Positions 8,460-38,286 of a stretch of 64,000 bases of DNA are shown here, piece by piece. A program made the position numbers and the translations under genes. The stretch spans positions 124,001-188,000 of the forward strand of contig NZ_CP036268.1 in NCBI RefSeq assembly GCF_007744515.1, read 5' to 3'. Source of the stretch: Stratiformator vulcanicus (GTDB taxonomy: Bacteria; Planctomycetota; Planctomycetia; Planctomycetales; Planctomycetaceae). Each line of letters opens with the position of its first letter. The stretch's first letter is position 1. The notes under the pieces were generated by a model. The model was not told where the DNA came from, ran no database searches, and worked only from the letters and a program-made list of their open reading frames with translations.

Positions 8460-8530
8460 ACTCAATGACTGGAAACAAGTCGGGCCAGACCCTTTGATGC
8501 CCAAAGCTCGGCATCGATCAGACGGAAATC

Positions 8531-8573
8531 GCCGGTCGCTTCGGCCGAGTCGACGTGTTACCGCGCGACCGGC
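8531..8573. terminator. Inverted repeat between convergent genes, possible bidirectional terminator
   Basis: Perfect 9-bp arms GCCGGTCGC (8531-8539) and GCGACCGGC (8565-8573) are separated by 25 nt. They lie in the 115-bp gap between two genes that end toward each other. There is no T-run on either side, so intrinsic termination is only a possibility. Confidence 0.35.
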
Positions 8574-8574
8574 C

Positions 8575-9657: not shown

Positions 9658-10225
9658 CGCACCAATGTGCCGTATTTCACTCGATTCGGCAATAGGTGGA
9701 GACGCGGAAGCCGCCAGCGATCAGCTTTCGGCGATCAGCTTTCAGGTACAGCCCGCCCCGCTTCCCCGATCGCACCGGGGGAATCTCCCAGTATTCGCGC
9801 AACATTCATATTCGCTGCATGATCGCTTCATGTGGGGTCCTACAGTGACTTCCAACCGGAAGCGGTGCCGAACACGGTTCGCCCGCTCTCGGATGCGATG
9901 GCCTGACCTTTGGTGTCAACCGTCGCCAATCGTGAGGTGGCCTAAATTTTTCCCCCGAGGGTCTTGACGAAAATAGAGATTTCGAAGTTCATCGAACTCT
10001 CACGTCAGGCTCAAACGGTGTTCACAGGCCGCCGTACTCTACGGTGCACACAAGCGAAGAGTTCCCCATTGCGGGGCTCGATATATCCGGGGAGGATCCC
10101 CGGTCGCAGATCGATCTGAATTGTGTTGAAGAACTGAAGTAACGACGAACAACGGCAATCGCCCCGCCGCGAAGAGGGCGATGAACTTCAGCTGTTCCCA
10201 CTACCTCAAGAAAGGTACCACAGCT
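9658..10225. other. Non-coding stretch upstream of a DUF1559 gene
   Basis: About 570 bp separate two divergent genes. A short tandem repeat is visible at about 9717-9749: GCGATCAGCTTTC occurs twice with one base difference. A TTGACG box at 9964-9969 could be a -35 element, but no good -10 follows. A purine-rich stretch (AAGAAAGG) ends about 10 nt before the ATG at 10226 and is a likely ribosome-binding site. Confidence 0.5.
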
Positions 10226-21689: not shown

Positions 21690-21690
21690 T

Positions 21691-23034: not shown

Positions 23035-23765
23035 CCGCAACCGAGTCAGCCATCGCTTCGCTGAAACGCCGCCGAGCCAAAATTGAGGACGACCTTACGA
23101 CACGCGGCCGTGCCCACACTTATTCGCTGGCCCGCTATAATCTTCACCAGATGTTGACCGCTGAGATCAAAGAGCATGTCCGCGGTCATTGTCTGGACGC
23201 GGGGGCCGGACGCGGCCCTTTTCAGGCATTGTTACGTCGCGTCGCGACATCAGTGACAGCGATCGACGTCACCGAACGCCCGGGAATAACTGACGCCGTA
23301 GGCGACGTTCAATCAATGCCCGAGTTTGCCAATGAAAGCTTCGATAGCCTGATCTGCTCGCAGGTGCTTGAGCACGTACCGCGTCCATGGGACGCCTTCG
23401 CAGAATTCGCTCGTGTACTGAAACCGGGCGGCATGGCGATTATATCTGTCCCGCATCTTTCGATGATTCACGAAGCCCCCCACGACTACTATCGCTATAC
23501 AGAATACGGGTTGAAGTCACTGGCCGAGCAATCTGGCTTCAGCGTCGTCGACATTTGCCCGACCGGAGGCCTAATAAGTTTCCTCGGGCATTTTGTGTCT
23601 CAGGTAACAATGACGACTGCGGGCGGACTGCCGATCATCGGCGGATTGTTCCGCTTGTTCAACTTGATTGGCTTGGTCTATTTGTTGTCGCTGCTTGATC
23701 GTCTGGGCGGTCTTAGAATGCTTTTTCCATGTGACTACTGTGCCGTCTTTCAGAAGAAGAAATAA
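23031..23765 (+). CDS. Class I SAM-dependent methyltransferase
   Basis: The product is 244 aa with a GTG start that overlaps the preceding stop (GTGA). Motif I is CLDAGAGRGPF (about 54-64). The acidic residue after strand 2 is in VTAIDVTERPG. Then come ESFDSLICSQVLEHVPRPWDAFAEFARVLKPGG and IISVPHLS, the pattern of the Methyltransf_11 group. H..PHDYYRYTEYGL after it is common in methyltransferases found in polysaccharide loci. The C-terminus has two hydrophobic stretches, so membrane contact is possible. It is the last gene of the rightward arm. A sugar or lipid-linked sugar is the likely acceptor by context only. Confidence 0.85.
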   Translation: MTATESAIASLKRRRAKIEDDLTTRGRAHTYSLARYNLHQMLTAEIKEHVRGHCLDAGAGRGPFQALLRRVATSVTAIDVTERPGITDAVGDVQSMPEFANESFDSLICSQVLEHVPRPWDAFAEFARVLKPGGMAIISVPHLSMIHEAPHDYYRYTEYGLKSLAEQSGFSVVDICPTGGLISFLGHFVSQVTMTTAGGLPIIGGLFRLFNLIGLVYLLSLLDRLGGLRMLFPCDYCAVFQKKK

Positions 23766-23790
23766 TATCAAATGTCGACCGCTTCAGGCA

Positions 23791-23842
23791 CTGTTCCCGC
23801 GCGTAAAGCATCTGGTCGCAATTATAATTCGCAGGGGAACAG
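23791..23842. terminator. Inverted repeat at the convergence point of the two glycan arms
   Basis: Perfect 8-bp arms CTGTTCCC (23791-23798) and GGGAACAG (23835-23842) sit in the 78-bp gap between genes that end toward each other. The loop is long (36 nt) and no T-run follows, so the role as a bidirectional terminator is tentative. Confidence 0.3.
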
Positions 23843-23843
23843 G

Positions 23844-24818
23844 TTAACTTCCCACGATAAGTGATCGCATCCTGCGGTACGTTTCGGGAGCTTGCTGTAT
23901 TAAACTTTGGGCGAACCCTATCACCAATTTCCAACTTTTTCGTGTGCCTGGCACTGCCAACGGATATTTCCGTCCTCCTATCCCTGCGATAAAGTCGTCC
24001 GCTCTGACAACCACGTCATCATGTCCTGATGCGAATGCCGATAATCTGTGAAGGTTGGCAAGGCGGCTAAGCTTGCTTCGTAATTGCTGAAGGTCGTTTT
24101 CGGAGAACAGGTGGCTGCTCGACTTGGCGAATTGGTAGCGGACTTCCAACGAGGCAATGTCGTGGTGTGGATTTTTCGTTTGCTGGCTCGACGAAACTCT
24201 GTATCCCGCTAGAGCTCGCGGAACACGAACAAACGTGCCAAATGCAATTAACTCAGACCAGAACAGCATGTCTTCGCTAATCCGAGTAAACTCGGGGAAA
24301 CCGATGCGGACACCGAGTTCGCGTGGGAACATCGAAGCCGACGGAAGATTAGCCGCGTATAAAAGGACCGATAAGGAGGGGTTTGCTGACCCGTCGGGTG
24401 GTTCTCTCTTCGACGGAGGCCAGATTTTATGGCCCTGAAAACGAAAGTGATCCGTGTAGACACACGCGGGTTCAACACCCTTTTCACGAGCCCATTGCAG
24501 CGCGATCACCTGCTCCTCAAGTTTTTCTGGTTTCCAAATATCGTCTGCGTCAAGTAGAGCGATCCAATCGCCGGTTGCTTCTGCCATGCCGCGATTTCGC
24601 GCTACGGATTCGCCAGAATTTTCCTGCCTATAGACCTTAACGGGTGAACCGAAAGACGCGGCAACATCCCCCGACCCGTCAGTGGACCCGTCGTCGATCA
24701 CGATTACTTCGTGAGCCGGACGAGTTTGCGTCAGCACCGACTCGATTGCCGGACGCAGGTAGGGCCCTGCGTTAAAACAGGGAATGATGACAGAAACACG
24801 GACTGCACTTTCGGACAT
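23844..24818 (-). CDS. GT2-family glycosyltransferase
   Basis: The product is 324 aa. The N-terminal GT-A domain has VSVIIPCFNAGPYLRPAIES, VIVIDDGSTDGS, ENSGESVARNRGMAEATGD in pieces, and the metal motif LLDADDIW near residue 98. SEDMLFWSELIAFG lies where GT2 enzymes carry the catalytic base segment (ED). The C-terminal 90 residues are helical and basic. No membrane helix is obvious. The enzyme probably adds one sugar to a growing surface glycan on the cytoplasmic face. It is the last gene of the leftward arm; 68 bp separate it from the GT4 gene upstream. Donor and acceptor are unknown. Confidence 0.88.
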   Translation of the reverse strand: MSESAVRVSVIIPCFNAGPYLRPAIESVLTQTRPAHEVIVIDDGSTDGSGDVAASFGSPVKVYRQENSGESVARNRGMAEATGDWIALLDADDIWKPEKLEEQVIALQWAREKGVEPACVYTDHFRFQGHKIWPPSKREPPDGSANPSLSVLLYAANLPSASMFPRELGVRIGFPEFTRISEDMLFWSELIAFGTFVRVPRALAGYRVSSSQQTKNPHHDIASLEVRYQFAKSSSHLFSENDLQQLRSKLSRLANLHRLSAFASGHDDVVVRADDFIAGIGGRKYPLAVPGTRKSWKLVIGFAQSLIQQAPETYRRMRSLIVGS

Positions 24819-24886
24819 TTCCGAATCATCTTAAAATGAAGTACAGGTTGGAAGTTACGTAAAGAAGTTAGAATGAAACGCCAACG

Positions 24887-25957
24887 TCAATGATGCGGAC
24901 TTCCGATATTTTTTAGCAAGTCGCTCAGCTTTCTACCAATTAATTCCGCAGAGTAGTTGTCTTCAATATGCTTTCGGCCCGCCACCCCCATAATGTGTGC
25001 GCTCTGTGGATCGGCGAGCAAGTCGTTAATTTTGTTCGACATCGATTCGATATCGCCTTCATCCACCAGATAGCCGGTGACGCCATCTTGAATTGCCTCC
25101 TTTAGACCTTCGTGCCGTGTCGAGACGATCGGTAAGCCTGACGCGGCAGCCTCCAGTGCGGCGACCGGCGTCCCTTCGCGATCTCCACTTGGAGCCACGA
25201 CAGAATGCTGTACAAATACCCGGGCGGCCCGCATCTCCTCGGCGACCACATCATGCCTTTGCGCACCGAGGAATACGAGATGATCTGATATACCGAGTTC
25301 TTTCCCCAACGCCCGGCACTCCGCCAAGAGCGGCCCGTCGCCGATCATCCGCAGAGTCGCATCCGGATGCGATCTCAGCGACTTTGAAAATGCGCGAATC
25401 GTCCGGCCGGGGGACTTTTTCGGTGTGAATCGCCCGACCGCGATAAGGCGCTTCTGAGCGCAAGGTTCTGATCGCGGCTGAAAACGTTCAAAGTCGACCG
25501 AATAGGGGATCATATGGGTTCGCTCCGGCGGTGACCCGAGGTCCTCAAGACGCGATCGCATGTCGTTCGAAACAGCGATGATACCAGCCGCCTCCTCGAA
25601 CAGCCGTCGGTACTTCCGACCGTAGCGTTCAAGAATATCGTTGCGTGCGGAGTCGTACCCGTGAAAGTATGCGACCACGCGCCTTGCCCACTCCGGCCCG
25701 GCTGTAGCCACCAATTCGGCTCCCATGATACCGTATTCCGCCAGAATCACGTCGGGCTGATACCGCTCAAGCACGCGACGGACCGGAAATCTGCGTGCCC
25801 AATCCCACGTCGGCTCCAAGCCGATAGAACGGATCCGCTTGGATGTCCTCAGATAGGGCATCGCCAACACGCATTCCGGTCGCAGCAGCTTTATATGCTG
25901 CTTTATGAAAGTTGACGCATTCGCTTCCCGCGAATGAGCGACAATTGCGATCCGCAT
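24887..25957 (-). CDS. GT4-family glycosyltransferase
   Basis: The product is 356 aa with a GT-B fold. The N-terminal domain has MRIAIVAHSREANASTFIKQH and FHGYDSARNDILERYG. The C-terminal domain has KRLIAVGRFTPKKSPGRTIRAF, LRMIGDGPLL, LVFLGAQRHDVVAEEM and EGTPVAALEAAASGLPIV, the conserved Glu-x7-Glu pattern of GT4. SVVAPSGDREGTP before it resembles enzymes of the WcaL/colanic-acid type. It is cytoplasmic and likely peripheral on the membrane. It sits 68 bp upstream of a GT2 gene and about 100 bp downstream of a methyltransferase gene; no separate promoter was seen. Specific linkage cannot be assigned. Confidence 0.88.
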   Translation of the reverse strand: MRIAIVAHSREANASTFIKQHIKLLRPECVLAMPYLRTSKRIRSIGLEPTWDWARRFPVRRVLERYQPDVILAEYGIMGAELVATAGPEWARRVVAYFHGYDSARNDILERYGRKYRRLFEEAAGIIAVSNDMRSRLEDLGSPPERTHMIPYSVDFERFQPRSEPCAQKRLIAVGRFTPKKSPGRTIRAFSKSLRSHPDATLRMIGDGPLLAECRALGKELGISDHLVFLGAQRHDVVAEEMRAARVFVQHSVVAPSGDREGTPVAALEAAASGLPIVSTRHEGLKEAIQDGVTGYLVDEGDIESMSNKINDLLADPQSAHIMGVAGRKHIEDNYSAELIGRKLSDLLKNIGSPHH

Positions 25958-26058
25958 TGAATAACGCTTTCTGACGCTTTGACTAAACGTGTTCTCGCGA
26001 GGAGAATCGACGCATAATCCCTACACAACTTTTCTTCAAAATCACGTTCCTAAACATC

Positions 26059-26778
26059 TCATCGATCACTACTAGCATCGCTGGCGGTACTAGGTAGCGA
26101 TGCTAGGACGACATATACGGAAGCGTCACGAGCTACGACACGTTGTGGTGTAATCCGGTCAAAGGCCTCGATTATTAATTGACTGAAAAAGAAGACAATC
26201 GGCTTAAAAATATGGGGAACCCGCGGCGCAATCGCATCTTGAAATAGCTGAAGACCAGTAGCGGCAGGCCCCATAATCGCTCGAGATTCTAGAACTTGGA
26301 ATCCAGATCGTTCAAGTGTCAACGGAAGTCCCAAACTCGTCCAACGCCAAAAGTCTTCCGGATGACCGTGAAACCGCCAGATCCCATGAGTCGAAAGGAG
26401 CAGCCGACCCTCCGGTCTCAGCAAGCGACGACACTCCGAAAGATAGAGCGTCGGATCGCGAACGTGTTCCAATACCTGATTCGACAACACAATATCCGCA
26501 CAATCATCATCCAGCGGCACAGTAAAATCTTCATTCAAATGTATATCCGCCGACCAATTATTCGCCAGGTCCACGCCGATATAGGCTTTGACAACGTCCT
26601 CAACAAGCGGACGATACGGCATACTCCCGCAACCCAAGTCGATAACGGCCTTGTCGCTCAGATCGAGTGAGTTCAGCAATGCCGTCGTCTGCTCTTTCAG
26701 ACAGCGCAAGTGCCAATAAACCCGACTCGTGCGACGCGGGTTGAGTCGATCGTGTTGCTTATTTCGTTCTGTAGCCAA
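26059..26778 (-). CDS. Class I SAM-dependent methyltransferase
   Basis: The product is 239 aa. Motif I is VIDLGCGSMPYRPL (about 45-58). The acidic end of strand 2 is in YIGVDLANNW. ADIVLSNQVLEHVRDPTLYLSECRRLL follows, then GRLLLSTHG and HPEDFWRWTSLGL, a pattern shared with other methyltransferases of this locus. The start is a TTG that lies inside the end of the upstream GT2 gene (20-bp overlap); no ATG or GTG is available early in the frame, so coupling is likely. FKPIVFFFSQLII near residue 195 is hydrophobic and may touch the membrane. The acceptor is probably a sugar of the exported glycan; this is inferred from context. Confidence 0.82.
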   Translation of the reverse strand: MATERNKQHDRLNPRRTSRVYWHLRCLKEQTTALLNSLDLSDKAVIDLGCGSMPYRPLVEDVVKAYIGVDLANNWSADIHLNEDFTVPLDDDCADIVLSNQVLEHVRDPTLYLSECRRLLRPEGRLLLSTHGIWRFHGHPEDFWRWTSLGLPLTLERSGFQVLESRAIMGPAATGLQLFQDAIAPRVPHIFKPIVFFFSQLIIEAFDRITPQRVVARDASVYVVLASLPSTASDASSDR

Positions 26779-27757
26779 TTCTTTTCATCCTTGCAGTCTC
26801 CCGCAAAGCCTCGCTCTTAAAAGTTGCGGACTGCAGTAACATGTCAGACAATGCAATCCCCAAAAACTTTCGAATGCTAGACGCCTTATAAGAAAGTTCC
26901 GAAATCATTTTATATCTTACCACATCGTTTCGTCCGAGTAGGAACGATTCAACCAATGAGACTTGTTCGACCAACTTTTGATCCGCGTCGACTTTCCTCG
27001 CACGCTGCCGTAAGCGCGCAAAAACCAACGCGAACGCCGAATGAAGTCTTCTGTCGGAGCGAATCGCACTCTCTAGAAATTGCCGGTGTTTCGTGATCAC
27101 ATCGATCCGCGTGCGAACCATTCGCTCGCTGTTAGTACTCATTGAGTTCGGATGTGTGCGATAAAGAACTCGGACGCGGCGGAAAGGCCGAACTCGTACG
27201 CCCGCTATAGCAGCCCTGACGAATATATCCCAGTCCTCACATGAATCGAGTTTCTCATCGAAGAATCCGACTTTATTGATAGCCGACCGCGTCCAAAGGA
27301 CTCCGTGCGGAACCCAACCGAATACCGTCGAGTTTAGCAAACAGCTGGAACGATTGGGCAATTGCCAGCGATGTCCAAGCTCACCAGGATTTGTAAACGT
27401 ACGAAAACCACACTGGACACATCCAACTTTGTCGGCAAATGAGCCGATCATATCTGCGTAGGCACTGGAGAAGACGCAATCGTCCGCGTCGAGAAAATGG
27501 ACAAAGTCGCCAGTCGCAACCGCCAACCCGGCATTGCGCGCCGAAGAGAGTCCCCCGTTTTCCTTCTCGACATATTTAATTCGGTCGCCGTATGAACGGG
27601 CGACCTCGTCGGTGTTGTCATCGGAGCCGTCATTTACCACGACGATCTCCACCGCCTTATAAGTCTGCCGCAATACCGAGTCCACCGCCTCAGGCAACAG
27701 GTGCGCCTGGCGATAGCAGGGGATGATGACGGAGACGATGGGGTGAGTGGCGTTCAT
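26759..27757 (-). CDS. GT2-family glycosyltransferase
   Basis: The product is 332 aa. The GT-A domain shows VSVIIPCYRQAHLLPEAVDS, IVVVNDGSDDNT, ENGGLSSARNAGLAVATGD in pieces, and HFLDADDCV near residue 89 as the metal-binding motif. FDEKLDSCEDWDIFVRAAIAG holds the ED pair typical of the catalytic base region. The C-terminal third is helical and basic, with RKFLGIALSDMLLQ. The gene follows another GT2 by 0 bp (stop 27758, start 27757) and overlaps the next methyltransferase by 20 bp. It is therefore tightly packed in the leftward operon. A cytoplasmic sugar transferase for the exported glycan is likely. Confidence 0.88.
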   Translation of the reverse strand: MNATHPIVSVIIPCYRQAHLLPEAVDSVLRQTYKAVEIVVVNDGSDDNTDEVARSYGDRIKYVEKENGGLSSARNAGLAVATGDFVHFLDADDCVFSSAYADMIGSFADKVGCVQCGFRTFTNPGELGHRWQLPNRSSCLLNSTVFGWVPHGVLWTRSAINKVGFFDEKLDSCEDWDIFVRAAIAGVRVRPFRRVRVLYRTHPNSMSTNSERMVRTRIDVITKHRQFLESAIRSDRRLHSAFALVFARLRQRARKVDADQKLVEQVSLVESFLLGRNDVVRYKMISELSYKASSIRKFLGIALSDMLLQSATFKSEALRETARMKRIGYRTK

Positions 27758-28735
27758 TTATTGACTACAGACACTTACACTTTCGAAAACTTTGCGGGCG
27801 ATTGCTCGTCGCATGCGCCCGCTGACCCGACGAATGCTTGGAGGAACAAACGTAAGACAAAGAATTGCCGTCGCTCGGAAAGGAGACCGGAATTTTAGGA
27901 TCGATGTAGCAAGGTTTTTCCACGCTACTCCGCGGTAACCGTTCTGAATAGCGAGTTTAGCGCAGGTGATATAATTGTTCGGTTTTCGTTTGGCCCGTTC
28001 CGACAGTTTTCGTCTCACATCCTCCGGCAACGTCCGATCCATTCGGTTGTAGGCACGCTCTACGCTTCGAAGCGCGCACTGCGCCTGACGACGCCGTCGT
28101 TCCATACCAACCGCGCTGCCGTGATATCGATATTGCAGTAGCCGGTCAGGCATATTTGCAAACCTCGTCCGGTCGGCCAAGCGAAGCCAGAGGTCAAAGT
28201 CTTGAGCGAATTCGAGCGATTCATCGTATGCATCGACGAGGTTCAATATCGATCGCCTCATCATGACCGACGGGTGGATCAACGTCGTGCTGCCGTCGAG
28301 CAGCCCCTCGACGATTGCCTTGTGATTGAGCGGCATCTCGAATTCGCCACACTCGTTTCCCCAAGCATCAATCACAACCGCACAGGTGCCGACAACACCA
28401 ATTTCGTTGTGTTGCGCGAGGTATTCCTTCTGTTGTTGCAGCCGTTTATGCACCGCCACATCGTCTGAATCCATTCTTGCGATTAATGAACCTCGGGCGT
28501 GTTGTAGTCCGAAATTTAAAGCCACAGTCAATCCCCGCCCTTTGTTGCGCACAGGGCGGATGCGTTGATCCTCAGATGCGTTTCGGAGAAATTCCCAAGT
28601 ACCGTCTGTCGACCCATCATCGACGATGATCGCCTCCCAATTATGGAAAGACTGCCCGATGAGGCTCGCCACAGCCTCTCGCACGTAGGGAAGCCCGTTG
28701 CGCACCGGGAGAATGATGCTAATTTCAGGACTCAT
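27758..28735 (-). CDS. GT2-family glycosyltransferase
   Basis: The product is 325 aa. Motifs: ISIILPVRNGLPYVREAVAS, AIIVDDGSTDGT, RNKGRGLTVALNFGLQHARG in pieces, and ARMDSDDVA near residue 91 (the DSDD form of the metal motif). Then come HPSVMMRRS and FAQDFDLWLRLA, with the QD pair in the base region. This combination (LPVRNG, R.D.DD, H.svm.rr) is common in GT2 enzymes of capsule and O-antigen loci. The C-terminus is strongly basic and ends with VFESVSVCSQ. Its start overlaps the stop of the upstream methyltransferase (ATGA). Sugar specificity is not readable. Confidence 0.88.
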   Translation of the reverse strand: MSPEISIILPVRNGLPYVREAVASLIGQSFHNWEAIIVDDGSTDGTWEFLRNASEDQRIRPVRNKGRGLTVALNFGLQHARGSLIARMDSDDVAVHKRLQQQKEYLAQHNEIGVVGTCAVVIDAWGNECGEFEMPLNHKAIVEGLLDGSTTLIHPSVMMRRSILNLVDAYDESLEFAQDFDLWLRLADRTRFANMPDRLLQYRYHGSAVGMERRRRQAQCALRSVERAYNRMDRTLPEDVRRKLSERAKRKPNNYITCAKLAIQNGYRGVAWKNLATSILKFRSPFRATAILCLTFVPPSIRRVSGRMRRAIARKVFESVSVCSQ

Positions 28736-29475
28736 GATGGACGTAGTTCGGACCAGATTTCACCCCACCGAACCTCGAGATGTTGTATTTCCAGTCCAGC
28801 AGCCGATGTCTCTTCGGCGAATGTCTCTAATGTAAATTCGGTCTCGTGAGTCGGATCAAGCCGATAGTCAACGCCCAGTTCGTCTTTAAGCGGAACTCTC
28901 CAATCCCTCTCGTAAACGGGAACACGGATCAAAAAACGACTCGAACCGGTCGTTTGAATCGCTTTCCTGAGAAAATCGCTTCGGTGCGGCAAGTGTTCGA
29001 GCACGTTCGATAGCACCACAACATCGTAGCGTCCCGCCGGGAGGCTGGTGAGTGCATCTCCACATTGAAAATTGACGCGTGGATGGCCAAAGCGGGTAAG
29101 CGCTTGGTCGATATTTGACCGGCTGAGGTCGATTCCCGTCACATCCGCTCCACTCTTCTCCGCGATACTGAAGGCGAGCGCTCCGACACCGCAGCCGATA
29201 TCCAAAACGAGTTCATTTCTCTGAATGCGGGATGAAAAAAAGTCATGATACTTCATGTGGCGATGCTTGGTGTGCAAGCCGTTTCCATACCTGACTGCTG
29301 CAGGACCATGCAATTGATAGAGCCGATAGTCCAAGTCCATCAGGAATTTTGCCGCCTCGCGAGGCGAAGTGCGCGCCGCAGCGACTTCCGCAATTCGAAC
29401 CAGGAGCGGTGACAAAAATCGTGGCGGGAGGAGCCACAGCGGCGCCGTCAGCCAGGTCGCTAATGCCTTCTTCAT
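28732..29475 (-). CDS. Class I SAM-dependent methyltransferase (UbiG/COQ3-like fold)
   Basis: The product is 247 aa. An N-terminal hydrophobic stretch (LATWLTAPLWLLPPRFLSPLL) precedes a classical Rossmann methyltransferase. Motif I is VLDIGCGVGALAFSIA (about residues 91-106). GADVTGIDLSRSNIDQA gives the acid at the end of strand 2. VNFQCGDAL is followed by YDVVVLSNVLEHLPHRSDFLRKA. The end is acidic and contains EIWSELRPS. It overlaps both neighbours by 4 bp, so it belongs to the same transcript as the GT4 upstream and the GT2 downstream. A sugar methyltransferase role fits the context but is not proven. Confidence 0.85.
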   Translation of the reverse strand: MKKALATWLTAPLWLLPPRFLSPLLVRIAEVAAARTSPREAAKFLMDLDYRLYQLHGPAAVRYGNGLHTKHRHMKYHDFFSSRIQRNELVLDIGCGVGALAFSIAEKSGADVTGIDLSRSNIDQALTRFGHPRVNFQCGDALTSLPAGRYDVVVLSNVLEHLPHRSDFLRKAIQTTGSSRFLIRVPVYERDWRVPLKDELGVDYRLDPTHETEFTLETFAEETSAAGLEIQHLEVRWGEIWSELRPS

Positions 29476-30602
29476 CGGCGAGTTTCTTCCAGATGCTCCG
29501 CGGAAAGCTCCAGCAAAACGTTCTCCTCCTGCTCAACGATTCTTGTAAGGCTGAGGTCGTTTACAATCGCCCGCCGCGCCGCGCCGCCGAGCTGTGATCG
29601 CAGACTGCCATCGTTGAGCAACCGGGTCACAGCGTCCGCAATCTCGGTTGGCTCAGTCCCGCACAGTAAACCGGTTTCGCCCGGCCGAATGACCTCTCGA
29701 ATCCCTGGCACCCGTGTACCCACGACAGCACAGCCGCACGCCATCGCCTCCAGAAGCGTCTTCGGGTGCCCCTCGTAGTGCGACGGCAGCACAAAAATTC
29801 GGCCAAGACGCAACTGCGATGGCAATAATGTGTGCGGAAGCCGTCCGGCAAATTCAACGTCGCACCCCAATGTCCGGGCCTGTAACTCACAAGCCTCACG
29901 TAAATTTCCGTCGCCAATGATCCTGACGCCAAAGCCACCGATGTCCGCCGCCTGGATCAAGCTTTCCACATTCTTTTGCTCGGATAGACGCCCGACGTAC
30001 ACGACGTCCCTGTCCGGCTCGACCGAGTTGTCCGGTGAGAACAGTTCCGTGTCGACGAAATTAGGTATGATCGTCACCCGCGAGGCCAAACGCGGCCAGC
30101 GGGACGAAACCTGATGCCCGGCCGCGGCGGTCGACACAACAATACGGTGCGCTGCAGAAAACACCCGCTGCTCGTACCTCAGCGCCTTCTCACCTGCGGC
30201 ATCCCCCCGCAGGTGGCGCGAAAATTCGGACCAGCGGTAGCCCGATCGAGCGACAAAAGGTCGGCCAAATCGCGCCCCAGCAGCAGCAGCCCGGTCTGCC
30301 CCCAAAGTCTGATTCGACTTGAACACCGAACATCGCGCCAAGGCCTTCGAATGTAACCGAATGAGGAGCCGGCGGTAGAGAGCGCGCGGCATCCCGCTCG
30401 AATTGCAAACGACGTCGATCCCGTCGAGTTGACGGCCTATCTCCAAGTCCGCCCGGCCGCCGTACGTTACGAACGTCACTTTCCACCCACGGTCTACCAA
30501 CCGCTCATAGAGCGATACTTCCCGCGCAAGCATCCCCCCCTGCTCCCACGCTTCGAGGGAGACGTCGCGGGTAAAGAACAGGCCGACGTGCTTCTCAGGC
30601 AT
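29472..30602 (-). CDS. GT4-family glycosyltransferase
   Basis: The product is 376 aa if started at the ATG at 30602, which gives an 8-bp overlap with the upstream stop. The frame stays open to 30680 inside the upstream gene, so a longer form is possible but less likely. MPEKHVGLFFTRDVSLEAW opens a GT-B fold. The C-terminal domain has VVYVGRLSEQKNVESLIQA, VRIIGDGNLREA, EFAGRLPHTLLPSQL and the motif EGHPKTLLEAMACGCAVVGT in pieces (Glu-x7-Glu). VARSGYRWSEFSRHL in the N-terminal half is typical of some capsule GT4 enzymes. Cytoplasmic; it probably extends the polysaccharide exported by the ABC pair upstream. Confidence 0.87.
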   Translation of the reverse strand: MPEKHVGLFFTRDVSLEAWEQGGMLAREVSLYERLVDRGWKVTFVTYGGRADLEIGRQLDGIDVVCNSSGMPRALYRRLLIRLHSKALARCSVFKSNQTLGADRAAAAGARFGRPFVARSGYRWSEFSRHLRGDAAGEKALRYEQRVFSAAHRIVVSTAAAGHQVSSRWPRLASRVTIIPNFVDTELFSPDNSVEPDRDVVYVGRLSEQKNVESLIQAADIGGFGVRIIGDGNLREACELQARTLGCDVEFAGRLPHTLLPSQLRLGRIFVLPSHYEGHPKTLLEAMACGCAVVGTRVPGIREVIRPGETGLLCGTEPTEIADAVTRLLNDGSLRSQLGGAARRAIVNDLSLTRIVEQEENVLLELSAEHLEETRR

Positions 30603-31317
30603 GACTCGTGACACCACTGCCAACAACTTCGACTGAAGTTCGCCCTTTAATCTTTTCGAGGACTGCCCATGTCGGTCCACCCATTAACGAATCGAGGTCG
30701 ACCGACTCATGAAATAATTTTCGGTAAAGCCCTCTACGGAGACGATTGCGGACACCCCTGGCGATATTTACGCCTTCACCCTCCCGGTCAAGTTGAAGAA
30801 CCTCAAGCCCGTTTCGCACGGCCCTCGCCTCGATAAATGCTCTCGCTTCCTGTGCGGAAAAAAACCATTTATGCCGATCCTCGGGTGGCTCGGGCGGAAG
30901 ACCGTAGAATTTAAGGGGGAAGTCGGGCCGATAAGGGCCAAAGCGAAGCATTCGAAACATATCGCCCCAAGGGTTCGGCAGCGAGATGATTACGTGGCTT
31001 CGCGTGACGCGACACAGTTCGTCGAAGACTTCATGCGGATTGTCAAGGTGCTCGAGCACGTCGAGGCACAGCACACAATCGAACGAACCGTCACCGAATG
31101 GGATCGCCTCGCGTTCCAAATTCACCTGATGATCCGGCGAACCGCCCAGCCCGATCCCGACATATTCGGCTTCGCTATCTATGTGCTGGCGCAGGTGCTG
31201 CTCATCTGCTCCAACGTCCAGAATTCGTCGTGAGTGCAGGATCGGCTTGTACTTCTCCCATACATAACGGGCTTTTGAGACGCGATCGGTGTAACCATTT
31301 CTTGTTTTAAACAACAT
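30595..31317 (-). CDS. Class I SAM-dependent methyltransferase with divergent motif I
   Basis: The product is 240 aa from the ATG at 31317, just after an in-frame GTG. The strand-1 motif reads RILDVGADEQHLRQH, lacking the usual GxGxG. The rest is standard: YVGIGLGGSPDHQVNLE, DGSFDCVLCLDVLEHLDNPHEVFDELCRV, HVIISLPNPWG. The later YGLPPEPPEDRHKWFFS is a feature of methyltransferases in O-antigen and capsule clusters. SAM binding through a relaxed loop is likely, but reduced activity cannot be ruled out. The gene overlaps the GT4 that follows and begins 45 bp after the stop of the fusion gene. Confidence 0.8.
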   Translation of the reverse strand: MLFKTRNGYTDRVSKARYVWEKYKPILHSRRILDVGADEQHLRQHIDSEAEYVGIGLGGSPDHQVNLEREAIPFGDGSFDCVLCLDVLEHLDNPHEVFDELCRVTRSHVIISLPNPWGDMFRMLRFGPYRPDFPLKFYGLPPEPPEDRHKWFFSAQEARAFIEARAVRNGLEVLQLDREGEGVNIARGVRNRLRRGLYRKLFHESVDLDSLMGGPTWAVLEKIKGRTSVEVVGSGVTSHA

Positions 31318-31361
31318 CACACGGAGCCAATATTGCTATTTCTATAAAATGATACGACGCC

Positions 31362-33668
31362 TTAGCCGGGAAACGAATACCCGAAATACTCAGCATCCAA
31401 TCGATATTTGGCGAACACCTTCTCTTCCAGTCGATCAGTATAGTAGTGCCTCAGCTCTCGGTGTCTTTGCGATTGGTTAAGCTTGGGAAGCTTTTTCGGC
31501 AGAATGAGGCGGTCTGCAATTACTTGCCAATCTTCCTGTAACGACTCGAATCGGGCAATGAAATCGACCAACGGCGTCTTGTCTTCTCGAAAGAGATGCT
31601 GATGCTGTGGCAGCCAATGCTTATTTCGAGCGTGACCATTTTCGTCCCAGGCTCCCTCAAGCACAAATTCCTCAAAAGTTCTTCCGAATTCTCCTGGCAT
31701 TCCCCGACTATACTCGAACGCTGAAACCATCCGGTCCCACGGACACCGAACGACTGAGAAACGAAAGAAATCTATCCATTCTGCTGCGTCAAGCGGTGAA
31801 GGTAGATTTGGTGCCGTGATTGCATCACTAGCATATCGATCAATAATGCCGCGATGTATTGAGTATCCAGCGGTCTTCGGCACGTGGACAAATATCGCAC
31901 GTCTTGACGGTACAAGAACTAGCGAAAGCTTCAGAAACTCATCAAATGATTTATGGTCATCTCTCCACCGATCAGGGCGAAAGTGTTGATGCTCCCACGA
32001 ACCTTTTCCATCTATCACTGTCGGAAAGGCATAAAGCCTATTGTCGCATTGTGTAGTGTGACCTTTATGGGGCTTTTCTTTGGGTTTCGGCCAAATTTGC
32101 GTCGCCTGATTGATCAGGCGACGAATCGCCGACTTCGGACCCTGATTCCTTGGAAACTCTAATTCTCGTTCGCGAAAGAAAACACCAAGGGTAGGACCAT
32201 AGGCGGCAATATATTGCATTCCCTTGCGAAACGGCCGCCATGAATGCTCGGTCACAGTTTCAGCGCAGCTTGGACGGCAGTCGTTGTCGAGGTGAGCGAA
32301 GCTTTTAAGGAAGTCGGGGTCGTCTGAAAAAAAACAACGTTTCCATGTCGCAGATGCAATCGAACGCTGCCGCGTTCCTTGGCGCATGTCATGAATGAAT
32401 CCAACTTTGACTTCCTCAAATTCCTCCATGAGAGTTTTGAGCAAAGTAAGAGCTTCCAAGCCTTTTGGCCCATCTATCAGAACGGAGCAGGCCTTTCCGG
32501 GCCGCAGAGCGATCTGTTCCCTAAGTACGCGATGCGCGTCTCCGTAAAGCAGTTTAAGATTCTTGTGTGCGGCAAGACGTTCTTCTGCCTGGCGGGCGAT
32601 GTCGTCATGCAGAAGTTCAACGCTTACTACTGGCACAGGCTCGCTGGAAAAAAATTTGGCTAAGACATCAGTGCTTTGCCCGAGAAACCTTCCAGACTCG
32701 AGTACATAATCAACTTCTAATGACTTACTTACACTGCATGCCAAGCACATTTCACTATGTAGAATGCCGCGTTCGGCGAAAGTGAAATTCAATCGACGAA
32801 ATCGGTGAATGTTGGTCTCCGAAGCACTCAGGCAGACTGTCGTCGCTAGAAGTGTGGTGGCGTGATCGCTCGTCTCTTGCCACAATCGATACAGTTCTGT
32901 GCACTCTCTCTTCGGTCTGTTTGTGCTAAACGGAGCGTTATCCAAAAGGATCGGGTGCCAACCACCTTTAAGGTGAACTACAGCAGTGCCTTTTCGTATG
33001 GGCACACAATTCGTTTCGTTCAAAATTGAACATGGCAAGCCCGCGAAAGTCAGATTCTGCCCGCGAACCGATAACTCAGAAGATTGATTCCAATTTGTGT
33101 GTCCCAGCAACTGTGCCAGGGCAAACTGATCTGCTGCGCCGTATGAATCGTCTGCCTCTTGAATTAAGTCTTCGTCTGAGCATATGTGCTCAACACGGCG
33201 TAAAAGGTCGGCAAACACTCGCGCCGCAACCTCTCCGTCACGCGTGAGCATCACACCTGTATTCAGCGGGAATTTCTCGGCCTTCCACGTGTAAACGACG
33301 TCCGCATCCGCTGGCAAGTGTTTTTCAATTCGATCGAGAATGATGGTATCGCAGTCGATAAATACGTGAGGACGACTTTGATTTGATTCAGCCGCGTGGG
33401 CCCAAGCAGCTAACTTCATCGGAATCCGGATTCGAGGGTTCGTTCCGGCATTTAGTCGATATTGTTCAAAAACCACGCTTGGGAAAGTTTTTGCCAACGT
33501 CGCAATTGACGCCGGCAAAACTTCATCGAAGAGAACGATTGCGTCGAATTGACCGTATACATGGCTTAGGGAGGCAAGCAATGTCTCAAGAAACGGCAAG
33601 TACCTGTTGCCGTAGATGGTAGTAACAAACCGAGGAGTCTTCATTTTACTGTCTGAATGGTAGATCAT
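31362..33668 (-). CDS. Three-domain fusion: GT8-like glycosyltransferase, central Rossmann-like domain, sulfotransferase
   Basis: The product is 768 aa; an ATG at 33644 (residue 9) is an alternative start. Residues about 9-270 look like a GT-A glycosyltransferase of the GT8/nucleotide-diphospho-sugar type: FVTTIYGNRYLPFLETLLAS, VFIDCDTIILD with a D-C-D metal motif (105-107), and NTGVML. Residues about 300-500 have EVDYVLESGRFLGQSTDVL, VSVELLHDD and CSVLIDGPKG, a Rossmann-like pattern resembling a class I methyltransferase without a clear SAM motif. Residues about 580-768 form a sulfotransferase: IFVHVPKTAGYS (593-603) for PAPS phosphosulfate, and FSVVRCPWDRMVSAFEY (637-653) for the 3'-phosphate. 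The first codon follows directly on the stop of the ABC ATPase gene. It may add and sulfate a sugar; the order of events is inference. Confidence 0.78.
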   Translation of the reverse strand: MIYHSDSKMKTPRFVTTIYGNRYLPFLETLLASLSHVYGQFDAIVLFDEVLPASIATLAKTFPSVVFEQYRLNAGTNPRIRIPMKLAAWAHAAESNQSRPHVFIDCDTIILDRIEKHLPADADVVYTWKAEKFPLNTGVMLTRDGEVAARVFADLLRRVEHICSDEDLIQEADDSYGAADQFALAQLLGHTNWNQSSELSVRGQNLTFAGLPCSILNETNCVPIRKGTAVVHLKGGWHPILLDNAPFSTNRPKRECTELYRLWQETSDHATTLLATTVCLSASETNIHRFRRLNFTFAERGILHSEMCLACSVSKSLEVDYVLESGRFLGQSTDVLAKFFSSEPVPVVSVELLHDDIARQAEERLAAHKNLKLLYGDAHRVLREQIALRPGKACSVLIDGPKGLEALTLLKTLMEEFEEVKVGFIHDMRQGTRQRSIASATWKRCFFSDDPDFLKSFAHLDNDCRPSCAETVTEHSWRPFRKGMQYIAAYGPTLGVFFRERELEFPRNQGPKSAIRRLINQATQIWPKPKEKPHKGHTTQCDNRLYAFPTVIDGKGSWEHQHFRPDRWRDDHKSFDEFLKLSLVLVPSRRAIFVHVPKTAGYSIHRGIIDRYASDAITAPNLPSPLDAAEWIDFFRFSVVRCPWDRMVSAFEYSRGMPGEFGRTFEEFVLEGAWDENGHARNKHWLPQHQHLFREDKTPLVDFIARFESLQEDWQVIADRLILPKKLPKLNQSQRHRELRHYYTDRLEEKVFAKYRLDAEYFGYSFPG

Positions 33669-34922
33669 CTATTTACCGATCACGTGCCAATTCTGCGAGA
33701 TGAGCACCGGGCCATGTTTGGTTCGATCGGGCAAGAGACCCGAGGGGAAAAAGGCGTCGGCTTCGACAGTGAAGGAAAAGGCATCAAGCATCACGTCGGA
33801 TTGAATTCCATTGACCACGAGATATAGCGAGGCAATGTAATTTCCGGGTGTAAAATTCAGAGATTGAGCATCGCAGCATACCGTGCATGGCGGTGTAAGC
33901 TCCAAGAAATTTTCGCAGGCGATCTTCGTGTCGAGGACAGCCACAGGCGATCCGCTTTGGTCAGAGACCTGGATGGTCACTCGGACGTTTCGCTTTGGCA
34001 TCTGGTCATTTGAAACTAGGTCGAGTTCGAAACGAGCAGGGCGGCTGCAGGAAAGAGATGCGCGGTCGCCTTGCTGTGATGAACTGATCCTAACGTTTGC
34101 AAATTTGAAGTTCGAAAATCGAAAACGTTTAGCGTCCACTAAGCTCATTGAGAGTTCTTCATGTCGTCCCGAACTCGCATACTGGTTCACTACTTGCGAA
34201 GTTGGGCCAAGCGTGACGACTTGTCCTGCAGCAATAAGGATGGCAGAAGCACATAGGCGGGTTACAGCCCCCATGTTGTGACTGACAAAGAATACCGTTC
34301 GCCCGCTTTCGGCCACCTCCCCCATTTTGCCGAGGCAGCGTTTTTGGAACTCGGCGTCGCCGACCGCGAGGACTTCGTCGATAATTAAAATTTCGGGTTC
34401 CAGGTGGGCGGCGACGGCGAAGCCGAGGCGGACGCTCATGCCGCTGCTGTAGCGTTTTACAGGGGTGTCGAGGAATTCTTCGATGCCGGCGAAGTCGACG
34501 ATTTCGTCGAACTTGCGTTTAATCTCGGCGCGGGTCATGCCGAGGACGGTGCCGCTTAAGTAGATGTTCTCGCGGCCGGTCAGTTCGGGATGAAAGCCGG
34601 TGCCGACTTCGAGCAGGCTGCCGACGCGTCCTTTGAGGTGGACGCGGCCCTCGGTCGGGTCGGTGATGCGGCTGAGAATTTTTAAGAGGGTGCTCTTGCC
34701 GGCGCCGTTGCGGCCGATGACACCCACGACCTCGCCCGGCTTGACTTCAAAGCTGACGTCTTTGAGGGCCCAAAAATCATGTCTTTTGCTCGCTCCGCGG
34801 AAAATATTTTGGGCACCCTCGACGAGATCTTCGCGAAGGGAGCGATAGCTCTTTTTCTCCTGCGTATCGGCGATGCGATACCGCTTGGAGAGGCCTTCGA
34901 CTTTGATCGCGTAGTCGGTCAT
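33669..34922 (-). CDS. wzt: ABC transporter ATP-binding protein for polysaccharide export (Wzt-like)
   Basis: The product is 417 aa. Residues 1-245 form the ATPase: Walker A GRNGAGKST (70-78), Q-loop region VGSLLEVGTGFHPELTGREN, signature YSSGM (158-162), Walker B ILIIDEVLAVGD (178-189) and switch His in FFVSHNMG. The GTGFHPELTGREN stretch is specific to O-antigen and teichoic-acid exporters. Residues about 265-417 form a beta-rich extension like the Wzt C-terminal domain, which in O9a-type systems binds the capped glycan end. The ATPase half is GC-rich like the chromosome, while the C-terminal half is AT-rich (23 of 60 G+C at 34081-34140, 38 of 60 at 34321-34380). It follows the permease by 18 bp and abuts the fusion gene. 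Confidence 0.92.
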   Translation of the reverse strand: MTDYAIKVEGLSKRYRIADTQEKKSYRSLREDLVEGAQNIFRGASKRHDFWALKDVSFEVKPGEVVGVIGRNGAGKSTLLKILSRITDPTEGRVHLKGRVGSLLEVGTGFHPELTGRENIYLSGTVLGMTRAEIKRKFDEIVDFAGIEEFLDTPVKRYSSGMSVRLGFAVAAHLEPEILIIDEVLAVGDAEFQKRCLGKMGEVAESGRTVFFVSHNMGAVTRLCASAILIAAGQVVTLGPTSQVVNQYASSGRHEELSMSLVDAKRFRFSNFKFANVRISSSQQGDRASLSCSRPARFELDLVSNDQMPKRNVRVTIQVSDQSGSPVAVLDTKIACENFLELTPPCTVCCDAQSLNFTPGNYIASLYLVVNGIQSDVMLDAFSFTVEADAFFPSGLLPDRTKHGPVLISQNWHVIGK

Positions 34923-34940: not shown

Positions 34941-35906
34941 TCAAATGAGATCGGCGAAAGAACTTTCGAACCGCCGGAAAATGATCGCCGATACGGGCAC
35001 AATGACAGCAATAGTTGCGCAGCCGATGCCGAACGATTGCCACGGTAGCGGGCTTCCAGTCAGCGTCGCGCGGAAGAAGTCGACGAATCCGTTCATGGGA
35101 TTGAGTGTCGTCGCCCAGTAACGCAGCCCGCTGGTTGATTTTAATGGTTGGGGACGCTCGGCGGGAGTGGCGATTTCGGTTGATGCCTCTGTCGGGGCTG
35201 TTATCGCCGGCAGGTAAATGGCGGGGGTCGCGAAGAGCCCCGCCTGAATGAGAAATGGGATCGCGTACCGCACATCACGGTATACAACGTTCAAAGCCGC
35301 CAGAAGGCAACCGATCGACATCGCCAACAGGGCGGCCGCCAGAATCGGCAGGGGGCTGAGCAAAATCGTCACCGAGGGCACGATGCCGTAAGCGATCAGG
35401 AGTCCGACCATCAGAAGGCTGCCGACGGCGAAATCGACCACGGCGGGAGCTGCCGCGGCGAATGGGATTAACAGTCGGGGGAAATAGACTTTTGTAATGA
35501 GTCTTTCAGCGCCGACAACGCTTTCGGAGGCGCTCGACAGCGCAGTGGAGAACATGGTCCACAATAACATTCCGCAGTAGACGAATGCCGGATAACCGGT
35601 CGTGGCTGAATCGGCCCCAATCGCGGGGGCGACGAAAACCGTGAAGACGATCATCAGTAGTGCCGGCCGCAACATCGCCCAGGCAATGCCCAGAAACGTT
35701 TGCTTATAGCGAACCGAAACGTCTCGCCAGGCAAGCAGCAGAAACAGGTCGCGGTATCGCCAAAGTTCCGCGACGTCGATCAACTGCCACGCCCGCCGCG
35801 GCGCGATCACGGTTTCGACTACGTTGGCGTCAGCCTCCTTGCCGGAAACATCAGCCGCGACGGGAGCTTCCGTCGGCGGTTCGGCAAATTGAGTGGAATC
35901 GGTCAT
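34941..35906 (-). CDS. wzm: ABC-2 type polysaccharide export permease (Wzm-like)
   Basis: The product is 321 aa from the ATG at 35906; the frame is open to 35963 but that part has no clear start. A polar N-terminus (about 45 residues) precedes WQLIDVAELWRYRDLFLLLAWRDVSVRYKQTFLG in pieces, the conserved entry of ABC-2 exporters of O-antigen and teichoic acids. Six membrane segments can be followed, with YFPRLLIPFAAAAPAVVDF and NVVYRDVRYAIPFLIQAGLFATPAIYLP as family marks. A less conserved loop with TEASTEIATPAERP separates the last helices. It forms a transporter with the ATPase gene 18 bp downstream. It is the first gene of the leftward arm. A perfect inverted repeat lies 91 bp upstream of the start. 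Confidence 0.92.
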   Translation of the reverse strand: MTDSTQFAEPPTEAPVAADVSGKEADANVVETVIAPRRAWQLIDVAELWRYRDLFLLLAWRDVSVRYKQTFLGIAWAMLRPALLMIVFTVFVAPAIGADSATTGYPAFVYCGMLLWTMFSTALSSASESVVGAERLITKVYFPRLLIPFAAAAPAVVDFAVGSLLMVGLLIAYGIVPSVTILLSPLPILAAALLAMSIGCLLAALNVVYRDVRYAIPFLIQAGLFATPAIYLPAITAPTEASTEIATPAERPQPLKSTSGLRYWATTLNPMNGFVDFFRATLTGSPLPWQSFGIGCATIAVIVPVSAIIFRRFESSFADLI

Positions 35907-35996
35907 ACGGAAACAGTGCGGACGCGGTTCGAAGGCCAAGCTTCGGATTTCCGCGATCTCCAAATCTAATCAAACGGCGATTCTTCCATAGGCGAC

Positions 35997-36207: not shown

Positions 36208-38286
36208 CTATTTCTGGGATGCGAACGCCAGCTCATCCTGCCAACGGGCGAGTTCGTCGCCCGCAGCCTTGGCAGCAGTCTCTGCCAGTTTCACGGCCGC
36301 CTGCTGCCTTTCTACCGCCTTGGCGACCTCGGCGAGCTTGGGGCGAAGTCCGTCGAGTTGCTGCTTCGCCGCAGGAATTGCAGCTTCCGCTTTGCTGACG
36401 ACGTCTTCGGCCGCTTTGATGGCCGATTGCGCGGCCGTGGCAATCGACTTCTGGGCTGTTTGCAGGCTTGCCGTCTCGGCCATTGATTTCCGAGTGGCTC
36501 CGAGTTTCTGCTCCAGTTCTTTGCTGACTTGCGTCAGGTCTTGATCCTGCGGCAATGCCTTCAATGCGGCGGCTAAGGATTCCAGTGCGGCCTTCAAGGC
36601 AGGTTCTGCCTCTCGCAGTGACTTCTCTTTTTGAGCCGCCTCGCTTGCGGCTTTTTCGGCTGCGGCCAGCTTCATCTTCTGGGCACTCAGTTTTTCGGTC
36701 GCGGATGCCTTTTGCTTGTCGAGTTCGGCGATCTTCCTCGTGAGGTTCGACTCCTGCGTCTTCCATTCGGATTGATCTTTGAGAAGCGATTCCAGTTTTG
36801 CTTCTTCGCTCTCGCGGTATTTCGTGGCCTTACTCTCGGCTGCTTGAGCGACCGTGATCCGAGATTCGAGCCTTGGAGGGTTCGGAATCAGTTTGTCGAC
36901 TTCCTTGTCATCTTCAGTGTTGAAGACGCGGATTTCGCCCGACCAGTCCGACGCGATCACGTGGCCGGTTTCATCGCTGCTGGTGACGGCGAGGGCGATG
37001 TCGCTGAACGCGGGGAATGTCTTGAGCTGCTTGCCGTTGGCGTCCCACAGCTTGGCGGTTTTATCGCGACCGACCGAGACGAGCTTGCCGTCGCGGGTGA
37101 AGTCGACATCGCTGACTCCGCCTCCGTGGGCACCGAAGTCTTTGAGCTTCTTGCCGTCGGAGGGTGACCACAGCCGAATTTTGCCGTCCTCGCTTGATGA
37201 GGCGAGCATGTTGGAATCACTCCGCCACGACAGGGCGGTGATCGCTTCTTTGTGACCTTCGAGCGTGAGGAATTCACGGCCGGTCCACGCTTCCCACAGA
37301 TGCAGCCCACCGGCTCGGTCCGCCGTGGCGAGCAGCACGCCGTCGGGGCTGAATGCGAGAGCCGTCACCCAGTCCGTATGTTTGGTGATGGTGTAGGCGA
37401 GCGAACCGTCTTCGACCGCGAATCCTTTGACCTCGCGCTTCGGTCCGCCGAGGGCGATGAAGCGACGATCAGGGGAGAGTTCGCCGGCGAGGACGGTATC
37501 TGTCTCGTCGCCGGCTTCCATCACGCGCTGGCCCGACTTCACATCCCACACGACGACCTTTCCGAGATAAGCCCCGCGGCCGCCCCCGGCGATGAGAAGT
37601 TGACCGTCGGTGCTGAAGGTCAGTTGCTCAGGACTGCCTTCAGGGAATGGGAGAATTCCCAAGAACTCAAGCTTCGCGGCATCGTACAGGACGACCTGCT
37701 GTTCGCCGCCGATGGCCACGAGCGGCGACCATGGGTTGGCGGCGAGGGCGGTGATCGTTCCGGGACGTTCGCTCGTGACGACCGGTTGTTTCGAAAGCCG
37801 CTCCGGCATGGGCGGCGGTCCGGCGGGTCGTCCGGAGGAGGGGGCAACAAAGTCGAAGGCGGCGTTCTTGGCCGGGCCTTTGGTCTTGCTGCTGGCATTC
37901 TCGGGAGCACCGATGTTGATCCACTCGCGGATCATGGCGAGCTTGTCGTCGGCCATCTTGGGCGACTCCGGCGGCATCGTCGGTTCGCTCTCGTGACTGA
38001 CGAGCATGTAGAGATAGCTCGCCGAAGCATCGCCCGGTTCGATCGAGTCGCCCGCTCCGCCCCCCTGCATCAGACCGGCATAGGTGGTCAGATCGAGGCC
38101 CGCGATTTTGTCACTGGCATTGTGACAGCCGGCGCACTTGGCGCGGAAGATCGGTTTGACGTGCTTGTCGAAGGTGTATTTGGGCGCCTTCGGCTTCGTG
38201 GAAGCATTGTCTTCGGCCAACAAGAGTCCGGGAAGGATGACAAGACTTGCGATCGCGACAAGCGGGCGGCCAAGTGACTTCAACAT
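36208..38286 (-). CDS. Planctomycete-type cytochrome c / WD40 / coiled-coil protein
   Basis: The product is 692 aa. A signal peptide (to about residue 24, LLLAED) is followed by a c-type haem site AKCAGCHN (Cys51, Cys54, His55) in the planctomycete cytochrome domain; TMPPESPKM (103-111) could supply the distal Met. Residues about 165-480 hold WD40 repeats: VVVWDVKSGQ, GGLHLWEAWTG, GKIRLWSPSDG, KTAKLWDANGK, GEIRVFNTEDD. Residues about 490-690 are a long Ala/Lys/Glu coiled coil (KMKLAAAEKAASEAAQKEK). The protein is exported and may act as a scaffold or redox partner for the large cytochrome-like protein encoded upstream. It is the last gene of the DUF1501 set; 183 bp with a palindromic module separate it from the preceding gene. 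Confidence 0.85.
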   Translation of the reverse strand: MLKSLGRPLVAIASLVILPGLLLAEDNASTKPKAPKYTFDKHVKPIFRAKCAGCHNASDKIAGLDLTTYAGLMQGGGAGDSIEPGDASASYLYMLVSHESEPTMPPESPKMADDKLAMIREWINIGAPENASSKTKGPAKNAAFDFVAPSSGRPAGPPPMPERLSKQPVVTSERPGTITALAANPWSPLVAIGGEQQVVLYDAAKLEFLGILPFPEGSPEQLTFSTDGQLLIAGGGRGAYLGKVVVWDVKSGQRVMEAGDETDTVLAGELSPDRRFIALGGPKREVKGFAVEDGSLAYTITKHTDWVTALAFSPDGVLLATADRAGGLHLWEAWTGREFLTLEGHKEAITALSWRSDSNMLASSSEDGKIRLWSPSDGKKLKDFGAHGGGVSDVDFTRDGKLVSVGRDKTAKLWDANGKQLKTFPAFSDIALAVTSSDETGHVIASDWSGEIRVFNTEDDKEVDKLIPNPPRLESRITVAQAAESKATKYRESEEAKLESLLKDQSEWKTQESNLTRKIAELDKQKASATEKLSAQKMKLAAAEKAASEAAQKEKSLREAEPALKAALESLAAALKALPQDQDLTQVSKELEQKLGATRKSMAETASLQTAQKSIATAAQSAIKAAEDVVSKAEAAIPAAKQQLDGLRPKLAEVAKAVERQQAAVKLAETAAKAAGDELARWQDELAFASQK

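Follow-up and report, generated by a model that had tools for sequence, protein, structure and literature searches.

A predicted GT8-like glycosyltransferase, methyltransferase and sulfotransferase fusion protein encoded beside a Wzm/Wzt glycan exporter in Stratiformator vulcanicus

Directly downstream of wzt, Stratiformator vulcanicus carries a single gene predicted to encode a GT8-like glycosyltransferase, a COMT-like methyltransferase and a sulfotransferase in one polypeptide, a three-part architecture that was found in this species only, as far as searched. We are highly confident in the identities of the three domains. The protein probably acts on the glycan exported by the adjacent transporter; more tentatively, its position and the analogy with WsaE and WbdD suggest that it could act as a terminal cap builder. 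Positions in Table 1 and the text refer to the window, i.e., the whole 64,000-nucleotide stretch of DNA that was analysed, unless another contig is named.

The reading frame runs on the minus strand from an ATG at 33668 to a stop codon ending at 31362 and contains no internal stop codons. The gene is present as one identical, full-length copy in the genome, which consists of a single 5.23 Mb contig. Its ATG is directly abutted by the TAG stop codon of wzt; the true translation start may be Met9, because the homologue from Candidatus Glassbacteria described below begins near this residue. The sequence-only reading of this DNA had proposed one 768-residue polypeptide with a three-domain layout, located directly after wzt. 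Frame, layout and location were all upheld, with each domain backed separately by profile or domain searches. Neither outcome named beforehand as refuting that reading was observed: the glycosyltransferase and central domains found support, and homologues show the first two domains truly fused instead of as parts joined here by a sequencing error. Third-position GC is low throughout the gene (0.36-0.55 by block, compared to 0.64 for wzt), which suggests that the gene was acquired in one piece or has long existed as such. Codon-position composition is unbroken across the linker, which shares frame and composition with its flanks. Single-sequence searches of Pfam, NCBIfam and PDB with the protein detected the sulfotransferase alone or nothing, and a single-sequence AlphaFold model of all 768 residues reached a pLDDT of 36, with residues 521-768 modelled only at low confidence.

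Table 1. Predicted features of the three-domain gene and its neighbours, with window positions, strand and basis of assignment.
Feature	Position	Strand	Basis
Whole gene, GT8-like + class I methyltransferase + sulfotransferase	31362..33668	-	One frame, 768 codons plus stop
N domain, GT8-like (GT-A type) glycosyltransferase, residues 1-269	32862..33668	-	hhalign against GT8 set; fused Glassbacteria homologue
DxD metal/nucleotide-sugar motif, D105-C-D107	33348..33356	-	Both Asp invariant in four relatives; aligned with WaaJ DAD
N136-T-G138, counterpart of GT8 'FNSGV'	33255..33263	-	Relatives' alignment and GT8 profile alignment
D180-Q181, counterpart of GT8 'DQD'	33126..33131	-	Relatives' alignment and GT8 profile alignment
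H232-L-K-G-G-W237, counterpart of GT8 C-terminal 'HxxGxxKPW'	32958..32975	-	H and K invariant in relatives; aligned with WaaJ IHYTG
M domain, class I SAM-dependent methyltransferase, COMT/YrrM-like, residues 270-503	32160..32861	-	Profile against PDB; AF2 and Foldseek
SAM-binding motif I, E324-SGRFLGQS-T333	32670..32699	-	Almost unchanged among 14 relatives; lines up with 'LEIGTAIGYS' of 2gpy
D399-G-P-K402-G403, matching COMT-type D-x-x-K	32460..32474	-	Invariant in 14 relatives; aligned with 'iDaaKG' of 2gpy
H426-D427	32388..32393	-	Invariant in relatives
Linker, residues 504-584	31917..32159	-	No family match in Pfam
C domain, Sulfotransfer_2 PAPS-dependent sulfotransferase, residues 585-768	31365..31916	-	PF03567, PHROG 3347
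5'-phosphosulfate loop HVPKTAGYS, residues 595-603	31860..31886	-	Aligned with stand-alone relatives from other planctomycetes
3'-phosphate motif VVRCPWDRMVSAFEY, residues 639-653	31710..31754	-	Aligned with VRNPWDxxVS of relatives
wzt, ABC ATPase with Wzt_C-like C-terminal domain, directly upstream	33669..34922	-	PF00005, E 5e-25
wzm, ABC permease of polysaccharide exporter	34941..35963	-	NF050109, E 2e-15, below curated cut-off
Methyltransf_11 gene downstream of fusion gene	30595..31320	-	PF08241; homologue also after Glassbacteria GT-methyltransferase fusion

Profile comparisons indicate that the N-terminal domain is a remote GT8-type glycosyltransferase. A profile built from four relatives of this domain aligned end-to-end by hhalign with eight GT8-type enzymes, including WaaO and WaaJ of E. 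coli (probability 95%, E 4e-8), compared to E values of 0.08 for GT2, 0.6 for GT4, and 0.4-0.7 for column-shuffled GT8 in control comparisons. The domain is collinear with the WaaO/WaaJ-type profile and its DxD, NxG, DQ and H..G motifs coincide with those of GT8; this match, together with the invariance of D105 and D107 in the four relatives, supports an earlier description of the domain as a DxD glycosyltransferase. It differs from GT8 proper in sharing about 16% identity and in lying below Pfam detection, given that no Pfam model matched it and PF01501 remained unmatched at E values of up to 5. We therefore term the domain GT8-like, without assigning it to GT8 itself, as it lies out of reach of the curated model of that family. 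Its predicted structure has a pLDDT of about 55. Relatives are rare: a fused protein from Glassbacteria, a stand-alone gene in another planctomycete family (L025/L046) and a stand-alone gene of the haloarchaeon Salinigranum rubrum, which matched at E 8e-6 in a small database. A single-sequence search of 298 genomes of the class with this domain found only itself, and scans of IMG/VR with it found no relatives. The best viral fold match in BFVD was A0A481Z2T3, a 1159-residue 'glycosyl transferase family 8' protein of Mimivirus LCMiAC02, which covers most of the model of the first two domains, albeit weakly (E 6e-7, TM 0.32); judged from this model comparison, it is possibly another GT8 and methyltransferase fusion.

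The middle domain is assigned, from profile and model comparisons, to the class I SAM methyltransferases of the COMT/YrrM type. A profile of 14 relatives matched solved O-methyltransferases, with 2gpy (E 6.3e-9) the best and 5zw3 at E 1.1e-7; the AF2 model of the domain has a pLDDT of about 90 over its core and again retrieved O-methyltransferases in Foldseek (best E 1e-6). The sequence-only reading had correctly described this centre as methyltransferase-like, but was wrong in seeing no clear SAM loop: a variant motif I is kept family-wide and aligns with the SAM loop of 2gpy. E324, S325, G326, G330, S332 and T333 of this motif are invariant in the family, as is the acidic post-I residue E351. 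Of the Mg2+ ligands and catalytic Lys of COMT-type enzymes (D, K, DN/DD), D399-x-x-K402 aligns with the first two; H426-D427 is likely the second metal-ligand position, judged from its spacing 28 residues after D399. The proposed chemistry should thus include a methylation step, given that the central domain can be recognized as a SAM methyltransferase.

Relatives of the middle domain share the motifs ESGRxRGQST, VSVE, GD, LIDGPKG and F.HD. They resemble COMT/YrrM-type O-methyltransferases (PF01596, PF13578) in motif I, the D-x-x-K-G segment and the fold found by Foldseek, but differ in the ESGRxxGQST form of motif I and in HD as the likely second metal motif. The 14-relative family also lies under the Pfam cut-offs; the domain itself matched neither PF01596 nor PF13578, and its best relatives reached 24.4 of the 26.3 bits needed. 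A relative with 36% identity was found by tblastn on the Salinigranum rubrum plasmid (E 2e-21), scanning 84,980 species with a profile added nine, and planctomycetes and phage contigs supplied others; the domain found only itself in a single-sequence search of the 298 class genomes. By these motifs (ESGRxxGQST, DGPKG, HD), the relatives constitute a putative, unnamed methyltransferase family spread over bacteria, an archaeon and phage contigs. IMG/VR yielded methyltransferase relatives only, and in three of its phage contigs (L029, L030 and L031) the ESGRxRGQST methyltransferase is encoded by itself. L030 contains further sugar- and methyl-transfer-like genes (7879-8589, 8586-9197 and 9191-9910), perhaps a glycan-modifying cassette.

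The C-terminal domain is the only one of the three that was recognized by Pfam, matching PF03567 at residues 633-765 (E 4e-11; 44 bits, twice the cut-off of 22); residues 588-766 also matched PHROG 3347, a galactose-3-O-sulfotransferase family (E 2.6e-17). Like bacterial Sulfotransfer_2 carbohydrate sulfotransferases, it contains both PAPS motifs, as noted from the sequence earlier and now aligned with relatives, and a C-terminal FE.L..D / GY.F signature. In contrast to this fused domain, its relatives in other planctomycetes, phages or plasmids are stand-alone genes. A genome-wide search detected no other Sulfotransfer_2 gene in S. vulcanicus. The genome encodes one CysC-type APS kinase, and thus PAPS can be made.

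The first two domains occur fused outside the planctomycetes. A protein of 538 residues from a Candidatus Glassbacteria MAG (L014:6275-7891) shares the glycosyltransferase-methyltransferase order, is 35% identical over 485 residues and lacks a sulfotransferase. Downstream of its gene lie, in this order, an FkbM methyltransferase gene and a methyltransferase gene whose product is 42% identical over 154 residues to that of the gene downstream of the S. vulcanicus fusion; wzm-wzt was not found within 15.7 kb around it. Some matches of proteins from this locus to Gordonia phage capsid proteases are weak and look like chance. On the Salinigranum plasmid (L010:8166-10699), a GT-like protein, an FkbM protein and a COMT-like methyltransferase are encoded by consecutive separate genes, and this archaeal row resembles the bacterial fusion in split form. 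The glycan cluster that holds them encodes an oligosaccharyltransferase as well and has no adjacent wzm-wzt pair. In the other planctomycete family, the lone GT-like gene directly precedes wzm and then wzt.

A second protein with all three domains was not found among 298 genomes of the class, 246 of the phylum, 200 of the Glassbacteria phylum, and two further sets of 289 and 334 genomes, nor by a pattern search of GTDB contigs or in the IMG/VR, phage and plasmid collections searched; an IMG/VR scan with the full-length protein also found no relatives. These searches sample public genomes and are not exhaustive. The combination had been described as unfamiliar from the sequence alone, which stands for the three-part order, unique as searched, but not for the glycosyltransferase-methyltransferase fusion, which already exists elsewhere; the unusual step is therefore only the addition of the sulfotransferase. 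The conserved pairing of the first two domains is nonetheless undescribed in the literature examined. Overall, each of the domains is of a known kind, and what is probably new is their combination in one protein. It offers a compact three-enzyme module with a traceable evolution, from separate genes in a haloarchaeon, through the two-domain protein of Glassbacteria, to the three-domain protein of S. vulcanicus.

The surrounding genes are those of a surface-glycan cluster. The match of the wzt product to PF14524 (Wzt_C) scored 28.7 bits, slightly short of the 30.4 required. Downstream, the region 20640-31320 is rich in methyltransferase genes, with four (starting at 30595, 28732, 26059 and 23031) among GT2 and GT4 genes, and the exported glycan is therefore probably heavily methylated. 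With the GTG start listed for it, the GT4 gene at 29472-30680 overlaps the methyltransferase gene at 30595-31320 by 86 bases; its translation probably begins at a more internal position. Directly upstream of wzm, 36208-38286 encodes a 692-residue protein with matches to PSCyt1, a WD40 propeller and, at its C-terminus, SMC-like sequences. Neighbouring genes with PSCyt1, PSCyt2/PSD1 and DUF1501 domains type the genome as planctomycete.

The activity, substrates, reaction order and capping role of the three-domain protein are inferred. Nucleotide sugars, SAM and PAPS are cytosolic donors; from established pathway knowledge, its expected substrate is therefore the lipid-linked glycan, prior to Wzm/Wzt export. 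In the proposed mechanism, to which we give about an even chance, a single cytoplasmic protein with three catalytic domains would serve the Wzm/Wzt-exported surface glycan: the GT8-like domain would attach a sugar, supplied by a nucleotide donor, to the lipid-linked glycan; O-methylation of the glycan with SAM would fall to the COMT-like domain, and its sulfation with PAPS to the sulfotransferase domain. The product would be a non-reducing-end cap that stops chain growth and that the neighbouring Wzt recognizes, through its C-terminal domain, for export. Counting against this mechanism are the Wzt_C score below the Pfam threshold, the lack of wzm-wzt in the 15.7 kb around the Glassbacteria homologue and the low pLDDT of the modelled glycosyltransferase domain. 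The suggestion from the sequence-only reading that a terminal sugar is added and sulfated before export is plausible in view of the gene's position and analogous systems. In Wzm/Wzt systems, the caps known to license export consist of methyl, methyl-phosphate or Kdo residues. A chain terminator of new chemistry, in which one protein makes a methylated and sulfated cap and Wzt reads the sulfated cap as the export signal, is a speculative and rather doubtful reading; if true, the sulfated cap would be a new export signal, linking sulfate metabolism to surface-glycan export in planctomycetes.

The closest competitor, itself possible though ranked below the capping role, is that the protein is a tailoring enzyme that places a methylated, sulfated side residue on internal repeat units rather than on the chain end, with the fusion serving only to channel intermediates. 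In favour of this alternative, bacterial glycans commonly carry their sulfate at internal positions, and the cluster encodes several other methyltransferases and glycosyltransferases, so that internal decoration would be common in it. At the haloarchaeal locus, likewise, these modules are encoded by separate genes with no wzm-wzt pair beside them. Moreover, an extended coiled-coil ruler is a described marker of Klebsiella chain terminators (PMC11231755), and none was seen in the model of residues 1-520, where the longest predicted helix spans about 40 residues (residues 521-768 are poorly modelled). Against this, the gene lies directly behind wzt, a lone GT relative independently stands in front of wzm-wzt, and known multidomain proteins with glycosyltransferase and methyltransferase parts at such a position make caps (PMC2943079). 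We rank capping first because of this WsaE precedent (PMC2943079) and the terminus requirement of Wzm/Wzt systems, in which export often requires a chemically modified growing terminus that is recognized by a carbohydrate-binding domain (PMC9445017).

It is improbable that one domain has lost catalysis, e.g., that the GT8-like or methyltransferase domain now serves as a scaffold for glycan binding, leaving the sulfotransferase alone or only two domains active. The extreme divergence of the glycosyltransferase domain, with no Pfam match, an unusual methyltransferase motif I that reads ESGR in place of ExGxGxG, and a gene sequence unlike anything in the 298 class genomes would fit such a loss; however, the DxD, NTG, DQ and H-x-K motifs of the glycosyltransferase are kept between phyla, and all 14 methyltransferase relatives, which come from many phyla, retain ESGRxxGQST, DGPKG and HD unchanged; this conservation suggests that function is under selection. 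A false join of two or three neighbouring genes in sequencing or assembly, to which the absence of the three-domain order elsewhere and the stand-alone sulfotransferases of relatives might point, was rejected as highly improbable, since the frame is intact in a one-contig genome with no stop or frame change, composition is uniform through the linker, the glycosyltransferase-methyltransferase part is truly fused in an unrelated genome of another phylum, and an exact in-frame loss of a stop between the methyltransferase and sulfotransferase domains would be demanded.

The capping role for the S. vulcanicus protein draws on two described chain-terminating systems. WsaE of Geobacillus stearothermophilus NRS 2004/3a combines a methyltransferase and two glycosyltransferases in one protein encoded beside wzm-wzt, and makes a methyl cap (PMC2943079). 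Both proteins thus have a methyltransferase and a glycosyltransferase in one chain, a gene abutting or overlapping near wzm-wzt and, for the S. vulcanicus protein probably, an ABC-exported glycan as substrate; in contrast, WsaE has its methyltransferase at the N-terminus, two rhamnosyltransferase domains and no sulfotransferase (PMC2943079), and the two are likened here by domain make-up. WbdD of E. coli O9a and Klebsiella O3 is similarly a multi-domain protein, and its methyltransferase acts on the non-reducing end prior to Wzm/Wzt export (PMC3482155, PMC11231755). However, WbdD joins its methyltransferase to a kinase and a long coiled-coil ruler (PMC3482155, PMC11231755), whereas the S. vulcanicus protein pairs a predicted methyltransferase with a glycosyltransferase and a sulfotransferase.
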